NCBI GenBank assembly: GCA_030428565.1
Contig: JAUIDR010000010.1
Location: 1-64,000, forward strand
Direction of reading: 5' to 3'
Length of the DNA: 64,000 nt
Source of the DNA: Alphaproteobacteria bacterium
GTDB lineage: Bacteria > Pseudomonadota > Alphaproteobacteria > UBA7985 > JAUIBT01
Shown here: positions 1 to 40,224 of the stretch, one piece after another
How positions within the stretch are numbered: position 1 is the first letter of the stretch
Layout of the letters: each line of letters begins with the position of its first letter
Notes under the pieces: model-generated
What the model was told of the DNA's origin: nothing
Seen by the model: the letters and a program-made list of their open reading frames with translations, nothing else
The model's database searches: none
Position numbers and translations under genes: made by a program

Positions 1-667
1 TGCCTGCCGGCGCATCTGGCGTCCGAGCCAAAACCAAATGAATGATGTTCTCGGACATGTCATGCTCACCATAGGTGATGAAGATTTTCTGTCCTTTAAT
101 GCGGTAATGATCGCCTTCACGCACGGCTTGGGTGCGCAAGCTGGCAAGGTCTGTACCCGCTTGCGGCTCGGTCAGGTTCATAGTGCCTGTCCAGCGGCCT
201 TCGATTAGAGCCGGCAGATAGCGGGCCTTCTGAGTATCCGATCCCACCGCTTCCAGCGCATCAATCACACCCTGGCTCAGCAAAGGGCACAGCGCGAGCG
301 ACATATTGGCGGCCTGCCACATCTCGCTGACCGCCGTCGATAGGGTGCGCGGCAATCCTTGACCGCCAAAGTCGGGATCGGCGGCCAGACCGATCCAGCC
401 CCCCTCTGCCAGAGCATCGTGGGCTTCCTTGAAGCCCTTTGGCGTCTGCACCTGGCCATTGCCAATATGCTTGGAATGTTCCAAATGGCCCGAATAATTG
501 ACCGAAGACAAGGAGTCCTGACATACTTTTGCCGACTCGCTCAAAATCGAGTCGACCAGCGTTTCATCCAGCGCATCAAAGCCAGGGCAAGCCATAAGAT
601 CGCCGCCACCAACCAGGTGTTGCAGCGTAAATCGCATGTCATCAAGTGGCGCTTCGTACAGAGGCAT
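1..667 (-). CDS. Acyl-CoA dehydrogenase, DmdC/FadE-like (partial, N-terminal 222 residues)
   Basis: This flavoprotein family oxidises the alpha-beta bond of acyl-CoA thioesters, using FAD and passing electrons to ETF. The reverse strand reads from an ATG at 667 without a stop to the window edge. The protein begins MPLYEAPLDDM, as in long acyl-CoA dehydrogenases of the DmdC (methylthiopropionyl-CoA dehydrogenase) group. Around residues 165-170 lies NLTEPQAGTDL, the substrate/FAD-loop motif, and about 25 residues later comes KIFITYGEHDMSENI, also typical of that group. A GGAAAC stretch precedes the start. The C-terminal half lies outside the window, so substrate specificity cannot be judged. 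It is divergent from the multidomain gene to its right. Confidence 0.88.
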   Translation of the reverse strand, partial: MPLYEAPLDDMRFTLQHLVGGGDLMACPGFDALDETLVDSILSESAKVCQDSLSSVNYSGHLEHSKHIGNGQVQTPKGFKEAHDALAEGGWIGLAADPDFGGQGLPRTLSTAVSEMWQAANMSLALCPLLSQGVIDALEAVGSDTQKARYLPALIEGRWTGTMNLTEPQAGTDLASLRTQAVREGDHYRIKGQKIFITYGEHDMSENIIHLVLARTPDAPAG

Positions 668-1097: not shown

Positions 1098-3713
1098 ATG
1101 ACCTATAAGAGCCCCAAGCAGGCTGTTGATGCCATGATTGCCATGGTCGAACAGTCGCTCCCAAGCGGCCTTGATGACCTTGATCTTACGAGCGCAGCGC
1201 GCCTGCTTAGCGAGCAGGCCACTTTGCGCCGCTTCCAGCCTGGCGAGACGCTGGTTCAGAACTTTGCAGCTGGGTCGTGGATCTATCTTTTGATGGATGG
1301 CAGCATCTCGTTTTGGAGCAACGGACGCGCTGAGCGCGAGCTGATAACGACCAACGCGGCTTGGACCCCGTTTGGCTGGTCGGCGCTGCGTTCACCGTCG
1401 CGGTATTTCAGCCACGTCACCAGTGAGAGCGATGGCCAGGTTCTGGCGCTAGCCATCGAGGACATTCAGCAACTCAGTCTTTCGCAGCCCCTGGCCAGCA
1501 TTGCCGTGCTGTCCTGGTGGTTCTCGCGCGCCTTGCCGCTGATTATGCAGACCCGCGCCGATCCACCGGCAAAGACTGCGGAAATGAGCCAATTGGCCCG
1601 TTTGGTGGAAGCGGAGCCACACATCGCCAGCCCCGAAGCTGACATTCCCAAAATTGCCGATGTTTTGGAACGATCACCGGTGCTTGGCGGCGTGGCACGA
1701 ACGACGTTGGAAATGCTGGCGCGCACCGCCAGCGCCGTCCAAATCGCTGGCGGCGACTTCGTATGCCGTCAAGGCCACAAGAGCCCTGGCCTAGCCATCT
1801 TGGTCTGGGGGCAGATTAATCTTAAATATCAACCCAGTGACAACCCAAACCAACAGCGCGAACGCATAATTACACGTCCGGGCTCTTTGGTCTCCTGGGT
1901 AGGCCTGGAGGGACAAACCGTCCCCAGTATCCATGATGCGCAGGCCTCGCGCGACAGCCTGTTGTTGGTGCTGACCCCCAAGCAGCTCTCCCAATTGAGC
2001 CAATCGCACCCCTATTTGGTCGAGACCATCTATCACAAACAGTTCTGGATGCTGGGGCGGTCGTTGCGGTCGGCGCGCGCACTGAAGCAGGTCGAGAACT
2101 CGCGCTCGGGCATTGAAGTCTTGCAAGCGCTGATCGACGACAATCGCTTGAACTTGCACCCCTCGTCGCAGCTGTTTGCGATCGAAGCCATGCTACAGCA
2201 CACCGCAACGCGGCCTGTCGCCTTTGATTTGCTCAATCGTTTGCCTGACCATGGTTCTGATTTGGAAAAGGGTATCGCAACCTTGGCGCTGGATACCCTG
2301 CGCAATCTGGAGCTAGAGACCAGCTTGGCTTCGGCTCTGGCACTGACCTGCCCCGATCCCAGCCGCCTCAAGTCACCCAGCTTGGCCCGCCGCACTCACC
2401 ACGCTGAAGCCATGGAGCAGGCCCTGGATTTTAGCGGATTCCATATCTCGGGCCTGGAAAACCTGCCGGACAGCCCCAACTGCTTGTTCATTTATAACAG
2501 CCTGCCGGGCCGCGAAATCACCCAGTTGGCCAACGGCCAGCAACTGGACCTGTGCGCCGAATTTATCTCTGCCAAGATCGCCTACCCCAAATATGGCACG
2601 CCTTGCACCTGGATCGCGCGCCCGTCGTCGCAATCAGCCAGCGCGGCCATTCTGGGCACCATAGCACCGCCGCAAGCCTCGCTGCAGGCGGATGACTTCT
2701 TGCAGCTCACCGAAGACGCACTTTCCGCTGGCAGCCCTTTGATGATCGCCCCGGAAGGCGAAGATGATCGCGAATGGCACGACCAGAGCACCGCCAGTTC
2801 GCCCGGCCCCTTGCGCGCCGGTGCCTTTGCCTTGGCTCAAGCTTTGGCCTCCAAGCCAATTATCGTCCCAATCGCCTTGGCCAATTTCGATGAAGATCCC
2901 GCTGACAAAGTGCTGTCAGCAACAATCCAGCGCCCCATTGCGCATGCAGATCTACCCGATATGCAAGATCGTGCGGCGGCCAAGGATTTCTTGGCCGAGC
3001 TGCGCAAGCGCTTCAAAGGCTGGGTGGCTCAGGCGCGCGAGCAAGCCGCCGCGCCCGCGCCGCAAAACTCAGCTAACGTCTGGACCAATCGCCACGTGGT
3101 TGGCACCCTAGAGCGGGAGTTCCAAGCGGACGTTTTGCAGGCCGAACAAAGCTTCCACGCCGCACGCGAGCCGCAGGGCGAAATCATGCTCTACGGCTCT
3201 TCTAGCCTGCGCTTTTGGGAGACCGCAGAAGCCGACCTTGGACATGCGCCCTTGTTCAATCTGGCTTTTGGCGGCTCGACCCTGCCCGCTTGCAGCCATT
3301 ACCTGGATCGACTTGTAACGCCCCTGGCGCCGCGCGGCATGATTTTCTATTGCGGCGATAATGACCTCAGTCGCCATGGCGATCCTCTGCGCGTTGTGCG
3401 CCACTTCAATCGCTTCGCCGACCGTTTGGCAGAGCGTTTGCCGCAGTGTCGCTGCCTGCTGGTGTCCATAAAGCCCAGTCCACTTCGCACCCATTTGATG
3501 GACGCAATTCAAGTCGCCAATCAGGGCATGGCCGATGCCGTCGCCAAGCGCGCAAATTGGCGCTTTATTTCGGTCTATGACGCGATGTTGGATGATGAGG
3601 GCAGCCCGCGGGCGGAGCTGTTCGTCGATGACCGCTTGCACCTATCGCCAGCGGGCTATGCCATTTGGGCAGGTAAGCTAAGGCCCCAGTTGGACTGGCT
3701 GCGCGGGATGTAG
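1098..3713 (+). CDS. Multidomain protein: cNMP-binding-like domains, acyltransferase-like domain, SGNH hydrolase
   Basis: With the ATG at 1098 the protein has 871 residues. Residues ~35-125 and ~200-300 resemble cyclic-nucleotide-binding (CRP-type) beta-barrels, for example FQPGETLVQN and ILVWGQINLKY. Residues ~440-640 resemble a PlsC-type acyltransferase: block III reads MIAPEGEDD, followed by LRAGAFALA and PIIVPIALA. The HX4D catalytic motif is not visible at its expected place, where NSLPGREIT stands. Residues ~695-870 form an SGNH/GDSL hydrolase with YGSSSLRFW (Ser), NLAFGGS (Gly), CGDND (Asn) and DDRLH (Asp-His). No signal peptide or membrane segment is seen, so it is probably cytoplasmic. 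The upstream in-frame GTG at 1053 and ATG at 1080 are possible starts; none has a strong ribosome site. The biological role is unknown. Confidence 0.75.
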   Translation: MTYKSPKQAVDAMIAMVEQSLPSGLDDLDLTSAARLLSEQATLRRFQPGETLVQNFAAGSWIYLLMDGSISFWSNGRAERELITTNAAWTPFGWSALRSPSRYFSHVTSESDGQVLALAIEDIQQLSLSQPLASIAVLSWWFSRALPLIMQTRADPPAKTAEMSQLARLVEAEPHIASPEADIPKIADVLERSPVLGGVARTTLEMLARTASAVQIAGGDFVCRQGHKSPGLAILVWGQINLKYQPSDNPNQQRERIITRPGSLVSWVGLEGQTVPSIHDAQASRDSLLLVLTPKQLSQLSQSHPYLVETIYHKQFWMLGRSLRSARALKQVENSRSGIEVLQALIDDNRLNLHPSSQLFAIEAMLQHTATRPVAFDLLNRLPDHGSDLEKGIATLALDTLRNLELETSLASALALTCPDPSRLKSPSLARRTHHAEAMEQALDFSGFHISGLENLPDSPNCLFIYNSLPGREITQLANGQQLDLCAEFISAKIAYPKYGTPCTWIARPSSQSASAAILGTIAPPQASLQADDFLQLTEDALSAGSPLMIAPEGEDDREWHDQSTASSPGPLRAGAFALAQALASKPIIVPIALANFDEDPADKVLSATIQRPIAHADLPDMQDRAAAKDFLAELRKRFKGWVAQAREQAAAPAPQNSANVWTNRHVVGTLEREFQADVLQAEQSFHAAREPQGEIMLYGSSSLRFWETAEADLGHAPLFNLAFGGSTLPACSHYLDRLVTPLAPRGMIFYCGDNDLSRHGDPLRVVRHFNRFADRLAERLPQCRCLLVSIKPSPLRTHLMDAIQVANQGMADAVAKRANWRFISVYDAMLDDEGSPRAELFVDDRLHLSPAGYAIWAGKLRPQLDWLRGM

Positions 3714-6028: not shown

Positions 6029-7915
6029 ATGGTTCAGAAGCCAGCCTTTCAGATCAAGTCTATCCAAGCGCTGCCTGGCCACATGTTCGGCTGCCGTCAG
6101 CACCTAGTGCGGATTAAGGCCCAAGTGGACAATGGGGCCAAAGACGCCGCGCTAATGACCGCGCTCTACCAGCGTTTGCGCACTCAACTGCCGCCCTGCC
6201 CAGTTGCCGACCTGGATCTAACCGCTCTGAACGCGCACGCCGGGGTAGCCAGCCTTGAAATCTTTGCCGCCCTGCTGGCTGCCATGCAGGAGAACGGCGG
6301 CGGGCCTGCGCTCGAGCTGCCAGTCATTGAGGCCTCATTGAGCGCTTTGCAGGAAACCAGCGAGGTGACGCTCTACGCGCCGACTTCCATCCCGTTGCTG
6401 GCAGAACAAGCGGCGCGCTGGCTCGTTGGCATGGTCGAGGCTTACGCCAAGCCCGATCAACGCGCCAAGCTGGACGCCGCCAACGACGAGCAGCTCCAAA
6501 GCCTGCTCGAAAAGGCAAGCAAGCAGATCGACGCCGGTGTCTCCTTCAATGCGAATGCACGGCGCATGGTCCGCGCGGCTTACCACGAAGATATGCCGTA
6601 CCTCATTCTACCAGGCAGAGTCCTGCAATTGGGCTACGGCGGCGGAGCCCGCCTATTCCGCGGTTCGGTCAGCGATCAAGCCCCCTCGATTGGACTAGCC
6701 ATGGCCCGCGACAAACGCGCGGCCAACCACCTGCTGCAGGTTGCTGGCTTTCCCGTGCCCGAACAGCACCGCGTCACCAGCCTTAAGCAAGCCGAGGCCC
6801 TGGCGCGAAAGATGGGCTACCCGGTGGTTATCAAGGCTGGAGACCTGGACGGCGGCAAGGGCGTATTTGCCAACATCAAAGATCGCACTGCGCTAGAGGC
6901 TGCCTACCTTCGTACCAGCGCCTTGACCTCGCTGGTCCTGTTGGAAAAGCACATCGCGGGCCACGATGCCCGGGTCACGGTCTTCAACGGCGAGATTGAC
7001 GGCGTATTCCCGCGACGCCCCGCGCAAGTCGTGGGTAATGGCCGTTCCAGCATTCGCGAACTAATCGCAGACTATAACGATGATCCTCTCCGTGGGCGGC
7101 AGGTCTATCATCCCCTCGCCACAGTGGAGCTCGACGAGGTGTTGCTTGAGTTCATCGCGCAATCGGGATTTTCGCTCGACAGTGTTCCTGAAGCCGGACA
7201 AACGGTTGTGCTGCGCAGCAATGCAAACCTTAGTACGGGCGGCATAAGAATCGTCTATGAAGGTGAGCTTCACCCTGAAGTGAAAGCAACCTGCATCCGT
7301 GCCGCTGCCCTATTCGGCATCGACATTTGTGGCGTCGACCTGCTGTGCGATGATCTTACACGCCCCCTAAGCGAGCAAGGTGGCGTCATCTGTGAGATTA
7401 ACGGCGGGCCCCAGATTGGTCTGACCGGCTCACAACACGTCAATCGCAAGATCTTTGAGACCTACCTTCCGAACGGGTTTAGCAAGGTGGGTCTGTGGCT
7501 GTCGGACGAGCCCTGCAAGTTCAAGCCTCAGCCAAAGAAGAACCCGCTGCAAGACCAACTTGAAGCGCGCCCACTTAGCAACCTATATGATCGCAACTAC
7601 GCCTGGCCGCTAACTTATAATTGGCAAGACAACTTCTTTGAGCAAGGCCTACCAACAGACCGCCTGCACGCCCTCGCCATCCCTGCCGAGAGCCAGAATT
7701 TCGACCGGATCGAACGGCAGCTCAGGTTCGTGGCTGGTTTCCTGCGAGGGCCTGTCTTGGTCGAAGGTCAACATCCGCTTGCAAAGGAAATCGCCGTTCT
7801 TTGCCCCAGCTTACAAGGCGCCGATGGCCAGCCGTTGCAGTGCAGGCTGTTGGATGAGGACCGCGATTTGAAGAAAGTATTCGCAAAGCATCTGCCCTCA
7901 CCGATCAGCCGCTAG
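6029..7915 (+). CDS. Cyanophycin-synthetase-like ATP-grasp protein lacking a Mur-ligase domain
   Basis: The 628-residue protein resembles the N-terminal two thirds of cyanophycin synthetase CphA. The N-domain ends with VLQLGYGGGARLFRGS (about 198-213), followed by an ATP-grasp domain at about 225-480. The ATP-grasp shows ARDKRAANHLL and FPVPEQ, a phosphate loop GDLDGGKGV, NANLSTGG, FGIDICGVDLL and the metal-binding EINGGPQ. CphA would continue with a Mur-ligase domain carrying GTNGKT. Here residues 485-628 contain no P-loop and resemble nothing I recognise. The protein should form an amide or peptide bond at ATP cost, but substrate and product are unknown. A glutathione-synthetase-like ligase is an alternative. 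The gene stands alone; the ATG at 6029 has only a weak upstream purine run. Confidence 0.7.
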   Translation: MVQKPAFQIKSIQALPGHMFGCRQHLVRIKAQVDNGAKDAALMTALYQRLRTQLPPCPVADLDLTALNAHAGVASLEIFAALLAAMQENGGGPALELPVIEASLSALQETSEVTLYAPTSIPLLAEQAARWLVGMVEAYAKPDQRAKLDAANDEQLQSLLEKASKQIDAGVSFNANARRMVRAAYHEDMPYLILPGRVLQLGYGGGARLFRGSVSDQAPSIGLAMARDKRAANHLLQVAGFPVPEQHRVTSLKQAEALARKMGYPVVIKAGDLDGGKGVFANIKDRTALEAAYLRTSALTSLVLLEKHIAGHDARVTVFNGEIDGVFPRRPAQVVGNGRSSIRELIADYNDDPLRGRQVYHPLATVELDEVLLEFIAQSGFSLDSVPEAGQTVVLRSNANLSTGGIRIVYEGELHPEVKATCIRAAALFGIDICGVDLLCDDLTRPLSEQGGVICEINGGPQIGLTGSQHVNRKIFETYLPNGFSKVGLWLSDEPCKFKPQPKKNPLQDQLEARPLSNLYDRNYAWPLTYNWQDNFFEQGLPTDRLHALAIPAESQNFDRIERQLRFVAGFLRGPVLVEGQHPLAKEIAVLCPSLQGADGQPLQCRLLDEDRDLKKVFAKHLPSPISR

Positions 7916-39805: not shown

Positions 39806-40224
<419 letters not shown>

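Follow-up and report, generated by a model that had tools for sequence, protein, structure and literature searches.

A soluble protein family joining cNMP-fold sensors, an LPLAT-like domain and an SGNH hydrolase, with a probable acyltransferase pseudoenzyme in one alphaproteobacterial genus

Enzymes of the neuropathy target esterase (PNPLA6) type carry cNMP-fold domains ahead of a serine lysophospholipase. The family described here resembles them by plan; their esterase, however, is patatin-like rather than SGNH, and they have no LPLAT domain. The acyltransferase part is most like PlsC, the 1-acyl-glycerol-3-phosphate acyltransferase (PF01553, TIGR00530, 5KYM), with which it shares the PEG motif of block III, a C-terminal VP motif and, in the relatives of the protein under study, the Asn-His of block I. 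Unlike PlsC, the family chain is soluble and carries sensors and an esterase as well, the Asp of the HX4D motif is displaced by about 13 residues throughout the family, and the genus studied here is without the His, the Asp, an Arg and a nearby segment. The C-terminal part shares blocks I, II, III and V with the SGNH/GDSL_2 proteins (PF13472; lysophospholipase L1-like and sialate O-acetylesterase-like), whose stand-alone forms are common in both bacterial classes concerned; the fused domains differ in forming a clade of their own at the end of a sensor-acyltransferase chain. Acyltransferases are linked to SGNH domains, as here, in the OatA-type (AT3-SGNH) and PatA/PatB O-acetyltransferases (PMC9558356). 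Those systems are AT3 or MBOAT membrane proteins with extracytoplasmic SGNH domains, whereas the present family has an LPLAT-type domain and no membrane stretch. All of the parts belong to known domain families, and their order is in no family model or paper that was found.

The gene lies in a 64,000-nucleotide stretch of alphaproteobacterial DNA, the whole of which is called the window:

1098..3713, + strand: whole gene, of no named family (open reading frame, with full-length homologues of 82% and 71% identity in both other genomes of the same genus)

The open reading frame begins with an ATG at 1098 and its stop codon ends at 3713, so that 1098-3710 (+) encodes 871 amino acids. The start codon agrees with an alignment in which the two homologues from the genus begin at the same residue. 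A Pfam search by domains gave cNMP, acyltransferase and GDSL matches. From the N-terminus, the chain runs through two domains of cNMP fold, then a helical segment and a PlsC/LPLAT-like domain, and ends in an SGNH/GDSL hydrolase. Hydropathy analysis (Kyte-Doolittle, 19-residue window) reached a maximum mean of only 1.65 and indicated no transmembrane stretch, and the 871-residue protein therefore fits a soluble type. The initial annotation, which had proposed a single soluble chain of about 871 residues with these domains, was thus right as to the reading frame, the domain list and its order. Predicted models from three sequences had a pLDDT of 37 for the whole chain and 35 for residues 425-655 and were not used; the putative LPLAT fold and the places of Ser468 and Cys486 given below were read from the sequence.

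The N-terminal half of the chain is made up as follows:

1098..1547, + strand: cNMP-fold domain 1, about residues 1-150 (PF00027, 22.1 bits alone; cassette alignment)
1668..2027, + strand: cNMP-fold domain 2, about residues 191-310, with a degenerate cassette (PF00027, 28.5 bits)
2028..2387, + strand: helical segment, about residues 311-430 (no Pfam match)

The CRP-type sensor stretches noted at the outset are borne out by cNMP_binding (PF00027), which matches two stretches of the whole protein (E 3.1e-11, 43.5 bits against a cut-off of 27.5). Taken alone, domain 1 falls below this cut-off (E 1.5e-4) and domain 2 exceeds it; domain 1 of one homologue, L025, barely exceeds it at 27.8 bits. The domain 1 cassette, FGWSALRSPSRY (residues 92-103), keeps Arg102 and has Trp94 in place of the ribose-binding Glu. 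This position is Trp, Ile or Val in 60 of the 60 relatives having the region, and the cassette Glu for the ribose 2'-OH is absent from every member aligned, the window protein included. Arg102-Tyr103 is invariant in the same 60 relatives, with the spacing to Arg102 one residue shorter than canonical. By inspection of the alignment the cassette of domain 2 is degenerate, and no conserved equivalent of the phosphate-binding Arg was seen there. Because domain 1 is without the ribose-binding Glu, cyclic nucleotides are unlikely ligands of the sensor domains. Ligand sensing as originally worded, read from the fold only, is not supported; the Glu is missing from all aligned members.

In NCBIfam, the best match of the sensor part is the family 2B encapsulin insertion domain (NF041163), far below its cut-off. 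It is cNMP-fold domain 2 that resembles this insertion domain. The HK97 shell domain is absent from the window protein; an encapsulin shell is ruled out, as the match spans the cNMP-fold insertion only. The cNMP-fold domain of family 2B encapsulins was reported in 2025 not to bind cyclic nucleotides (PMC12407261). Given this non-binding neighbour, the missing Glu of domain 1 and the degenerate cassette of domain 2, a different small ligand, or none, is to be expected for the sensor domains. The helical segment that follows them is the most conserved part of the protein within the genus, with the lowest dN/dS among the domains in each genome pair.

At the other end of the chain, the SGNH site is complete and conserved:

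3153..3710, + strand: SGNH/GDSL_2 hydrolase domain, about residues 686-871 (PF13472, 59.7 bits isolated)
3198..3200, + strand: Ser701, block I nucleophile, in YGSSS (invariant in 57/57 SGNH-bearing relatives)
3354..3365, + strand: Gly753-Asp754-Asn755-Asp756, block III (Asn755 in 56/57 relatives)
3630..3641, + strand: Asp845-Arg846-Leu847-His848, block V Asp/His (Asp845 and His848 in 57/57 relatives)

In the whole protein, Lipase_GDSL_2 (PF13472) matches residues 712-856 (E 5.9e-15). Each of blocks I, II, III and V has its residues in place (Ser701, Gly726, Asn755, Asp845 and His848), which places the domain in the SGNH family, and Gly726 is shared by 52 of the 57 SGNH-bearing relatives. The full catalytic set that had been claimed for the protein is confirmed, its Ser, Asp and His being conserved in every such relative. 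With these three residues kept, the site is intact and activity is expected. Structures solved for relatives of the domain (PDB 7PZG, 6NJC) carry the annotations lysophospholipase L1 and sialate O-acetylesterase.

The domain between the sensors and the hydrolase differs from its relatives at the positions expected for catalysis:

2388..3062, + strand: PlsC/LPLAT-like domain, about residues 431-655, probably catalytically dead (PF01553, 24.1 bits isolated)
2496..2501, + strand: Asn467-Ser468, at the position of the LPLAT block I Asn-His (alignment)
2553..2555, + strand: Cys486, at the position of an invariant Asp (alignment)
2610..2612, + strand: Trp505, at the position of an invariant Arg (alignment)
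2748..2768, + strand: LPLAT block III, APEGEDD, residues 551-557 (alignment)

The Acyltransferase profile PF01553 (cut-off 23 bits) matches residues 528-594 only, which is the C-terminal half of the profile, at 21.9 bits in the whole protein and 24.1 in the isolated domain. Three relatives, all without SGNH (P0003, from L009, and L024 and L027), score 34-39 bits, above the cut-off, with most of the profile covered. The family profile also aligned with Thermotoga PlsC (5KYM), weakly (E 0.007) and with the Asn-His aligned.

Residue conservation was counted, in the numbering of the window protein, over 61 family members aligned from outside its genus. Asn467-His468, Asp486 and Arg505 are invariant in 61/61 of these relatives, and the PEG of block III (Pro552, Glu553, Gly554) is invariant in the whole family, the 61 included. 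All three genomes of the window's genus have Ser468, Cys486 and Trp505 instead of the His, Asp and Arg; block I of the window protein reads YNSL, and about 18 residues are deleted after about residue 514 in the genus. Ser468 is identical in three independent genomes, and a sequencing error is thereby ruled out. The PlsC-like block III of the initial annotation (APEGEDD) is real, but the catalytic His of block I is missing, which had gone unreported. An HX4D motif is not found in either group: the window protein has Ser468 and Cys486, and in the relatives the Asp lies 18 residues beyond the His, from which the pair is inferred to be an expanded HX4D motif, HX17D. A housekeeping PlsC is ruled out as the identity of the protein, since housekeeping acyl transfer is covered by three further PF01553 genes of the genome, all of them canonical.

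With the His, Asp and Arg replaced and some 18 residues gone, the acyltransferase domain of the window's genus is probably a pseudoenzyme. Active acyl transfer is unlikely in the genus, given the absence of residues invariant in all 61 relatives; binding of an acyl donor or acceptor by the putative LPLAT domain is possible. Within the genus, dN/dS of this domain is 0.07-0.18, much as in the rest of the protein; all domains are under purifying selection, with 0.03-0.21 per structured domain. Residue losses in a domain still under such selection point to a pseudoenzyme that has been retained and not to one in decay. It could also be supposed that the domain is still active through a rearranged site, with Ser468 or a nearby residue in place of the His. 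Ser468, Cys486 and block III are indeed invariant within the genus, and the domain is under selection. However, the His, Asp, Arg and about 18 residues have all been lost together, and to our knowledge all characterised LPLATs use His as the general base, which makes a still-active domain very unlikely. Because the branch leading to the window clade is very long (2.94 changes per site in the tree), the clade could have gained a different chemistry rather than lost one.

The chain is not confined to this genus. The window's genome has a single copy, with no further one, and among 58 other relatives (8 of the same order) no full-length homologue was found, one of them having only a stand-alone SGNH relative. 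In profile searches, a second and distant alphaproteobacterial genus with genomes of 1.0-1.6 Mb was found to carry the same four-part chain: it is present in 50 of 150 genomes sampled in that order, all 50 carriers fall in one genus, and most matches are full length, a few being cut by contig ends. In a genus of another class, it was found in 8 species and then by profile search in 50/50 genomes, and so belongs to the core genes of one genus at least. By inspection, leuS, lptE and holA lie upstream of the gene there, and this gene order suggests Gammaproteobacteria. Carriage comes to about 100 other genomes in partial samples, all within one phylum.

The combination is not peculiar to this protein: a conserved family carries it, in three or more genera belonging to two classes. 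A chimera, an assembly error and a unique combination are all ruled out by its presence in three genomes of the genus and in two other genera. The same architecture in many annotated proteins had been named in advance as a refuting outcome, and this holds only in part: homologues are many, but no curated model for the four-part architecture was found in Pfam or NCBIfam, and no paper on it in the literature searched. In this sense the family is conserved yet undescribed. When placed in a tree with 25 stand-alone SGNH proteins, the fused SGNH domains group together as one clade (support 100/98), and one fusion is enough to explain the fused forms.

Two single cases were also observed. One genome of the other-class genus has a second copy (L098) with 51% identity to the type found in the small alphaproteobacterial genomes and about 31% to the type of its own genus; being nearer to the former, it was likely acquired by horizontal transfer. 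In another locus (L099, 153-1094 and 1027-2766, - strand) the gene consists of two open reading frames, of 580 and 314 amino acids, split inside the LPLAT domain by a frameshift or a true fission.

Within the window's genus, the sole constant neighbour is a divergent upstream gene, present in all three genomes:

Window 2-667, - strand: acyl-CoA dehydrogenase, cut by the contig end
L002 7826-9607: acyl-CoA dehydrogenase
L003 7811-9778: acyl-CoA dehydrogenase

The gap between this gene and that of the 871-residue protein is about 300-430 bp, and a link of the protein with acyl-CoA metabolism is possible. The downstream genes vary within the genus, and no conserved operon hinting at a substrate was seen across the lineages compared. 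An acyltransferase-3 gene (PF01757) adjoins the dehydrogenase at L002 6295-7770 (-) and L003 6322-7671 (-); the window's contig stops short of it. Elsewhere in the window, 6029-7912 (+) encodes a 628-residue protein with weak ATP-grasp matches only, resembling the cyanophycin synthetase or RimK superfamily. A bacterial RNase P class A RNA at 39810-40224 (+) is the sole Rfam match in the window, and no tRNA genes were found within it.

The three relatives without SGNH form one clade in the tree, and each has an esterase gene of another family near by:

L083 7937-8956: AXE1-family gene near an SGNH-less cNMP-LPLAT gene
L084 11906-12853: AXE1-family gene near an SGNH-less cNMP-LPLAT gene
L009 3481-4473: AXE1-family gene near an SGNH-less cNMP-LPLAT gene

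The AXE1 gene (PF05448) adjoins the cNMP-LPLAT gene in two loci, tail to tail in genome G399 and divergently in G193, and is one gene off in the third (G402), where a PhoD-like gene separates the two. None of these three genomes has another AXE1 gene, and the seven SGNH-fused genomes tested have none at all. As the three proteins are one clade, this proximity may go back to one linkage event, kept through later divergence and rearrangement. Even so, the pattern argues for an LPLAT domain that works with an esterase of changeable family, and suggests that the esterase step is required and exchangeable.

These patterns bear on what the chain might do where both enzymes are present. One reading is an acyl relay, in which the SGNH domain, as a transferase and not a hydrolase, passes to an acceptor the acyl group that the LPLAT domain has loaded or positioned. 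In the OatA and PatB systems the last transfer falls to an SGNH domain that is fused to or paired with an acyltransferase (PMC9558356), and in the present family the LPLAT and SGNH domains are kept together, both intact, in 57 fused members. However, the donors in OatA-type systems are membrane proteins (AT3 or MBOAT) and their SGNH domains are extracytoplasmic, whereas the present chain is soluble and without a membrane stretch. The window's genus also keeps its SGNH although the LPLAT residues are gone, and the three SGNH-less relatives have the unrelated AXE1 family near by; a relay is therefore distinctly unlikely.

Another reading is a sensor-switched cycle, in which the LPLAT domain of the intact relatives would put an acyl chain on a lysophospholipid or other lipid and the SGNH domain would take one off the same lipid, the window's genus retaining the removal half only. 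It accords with the conservation of both active sites in the relatives and with the constant presence of an esterase, either fused to the LPLAT domain or encoded near by. One substrate shared by both domains is, however, assumed, and AXE1-family enzymes are known mainly as short-chain deacetylases. Such a cycle is rather unlikely.

The reading given somewhat better than even chances starts from a bifunctional sensor-acyltransferase-esterase. From it the window's genus would have derived an SGNH esterase under ligand control, in which the acyltransferase domain is dead but still serves in binding or scaffolding. The ancestral chain would have joined, in a single fusion, two cNMP-fold sensors to an LPLAT domain through a helical coupling segment, with an SGNH domain at the C-terminus, giving soluble enzymes of acyl esters. 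Since both enzymes look intact in most members, the chain there may, under the control of its sensors, attach an acyl group and remove it again, or else relay it. In the window's genus the acyltransferase has lost its His and Asp, one conserved Arg and the nearby segment, and the protein would work as an SGNH esterase that may be lysophospholipase-like or short-chain-esterase-like. A small ligand, probably not a cyclic nucleotide, would bind the sensor domains and control the esterase, and the dead domain would persist for substrate binding or as a scaffold. In a bolder form, the LPLAT domain and an esterase would depend on each other, though the esterase could be exchanged, a fused SGNH for a neighbouring AXE1, and the pseudoenzyme of the genus would bind the acyl substrate and thereby control the esterase. 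This form is possible, if doubtful.

The family sets intact acyltransferase domains beside dead ones within one architecture, a comparison provided by nature, and offers another in which esterase families are exchanged beside the same sensor-acyltransferase protein. Both allow the mutual effects of acyltransferase and esterase, and the ligand of the sensors, to be asked about directly. If the two enzymes are indeed obligate partners, the family would represent a new kind of regulated enzyme for the turnover of lipids or acyl groups, answering to a ligand other than a cyclic nucleotide.
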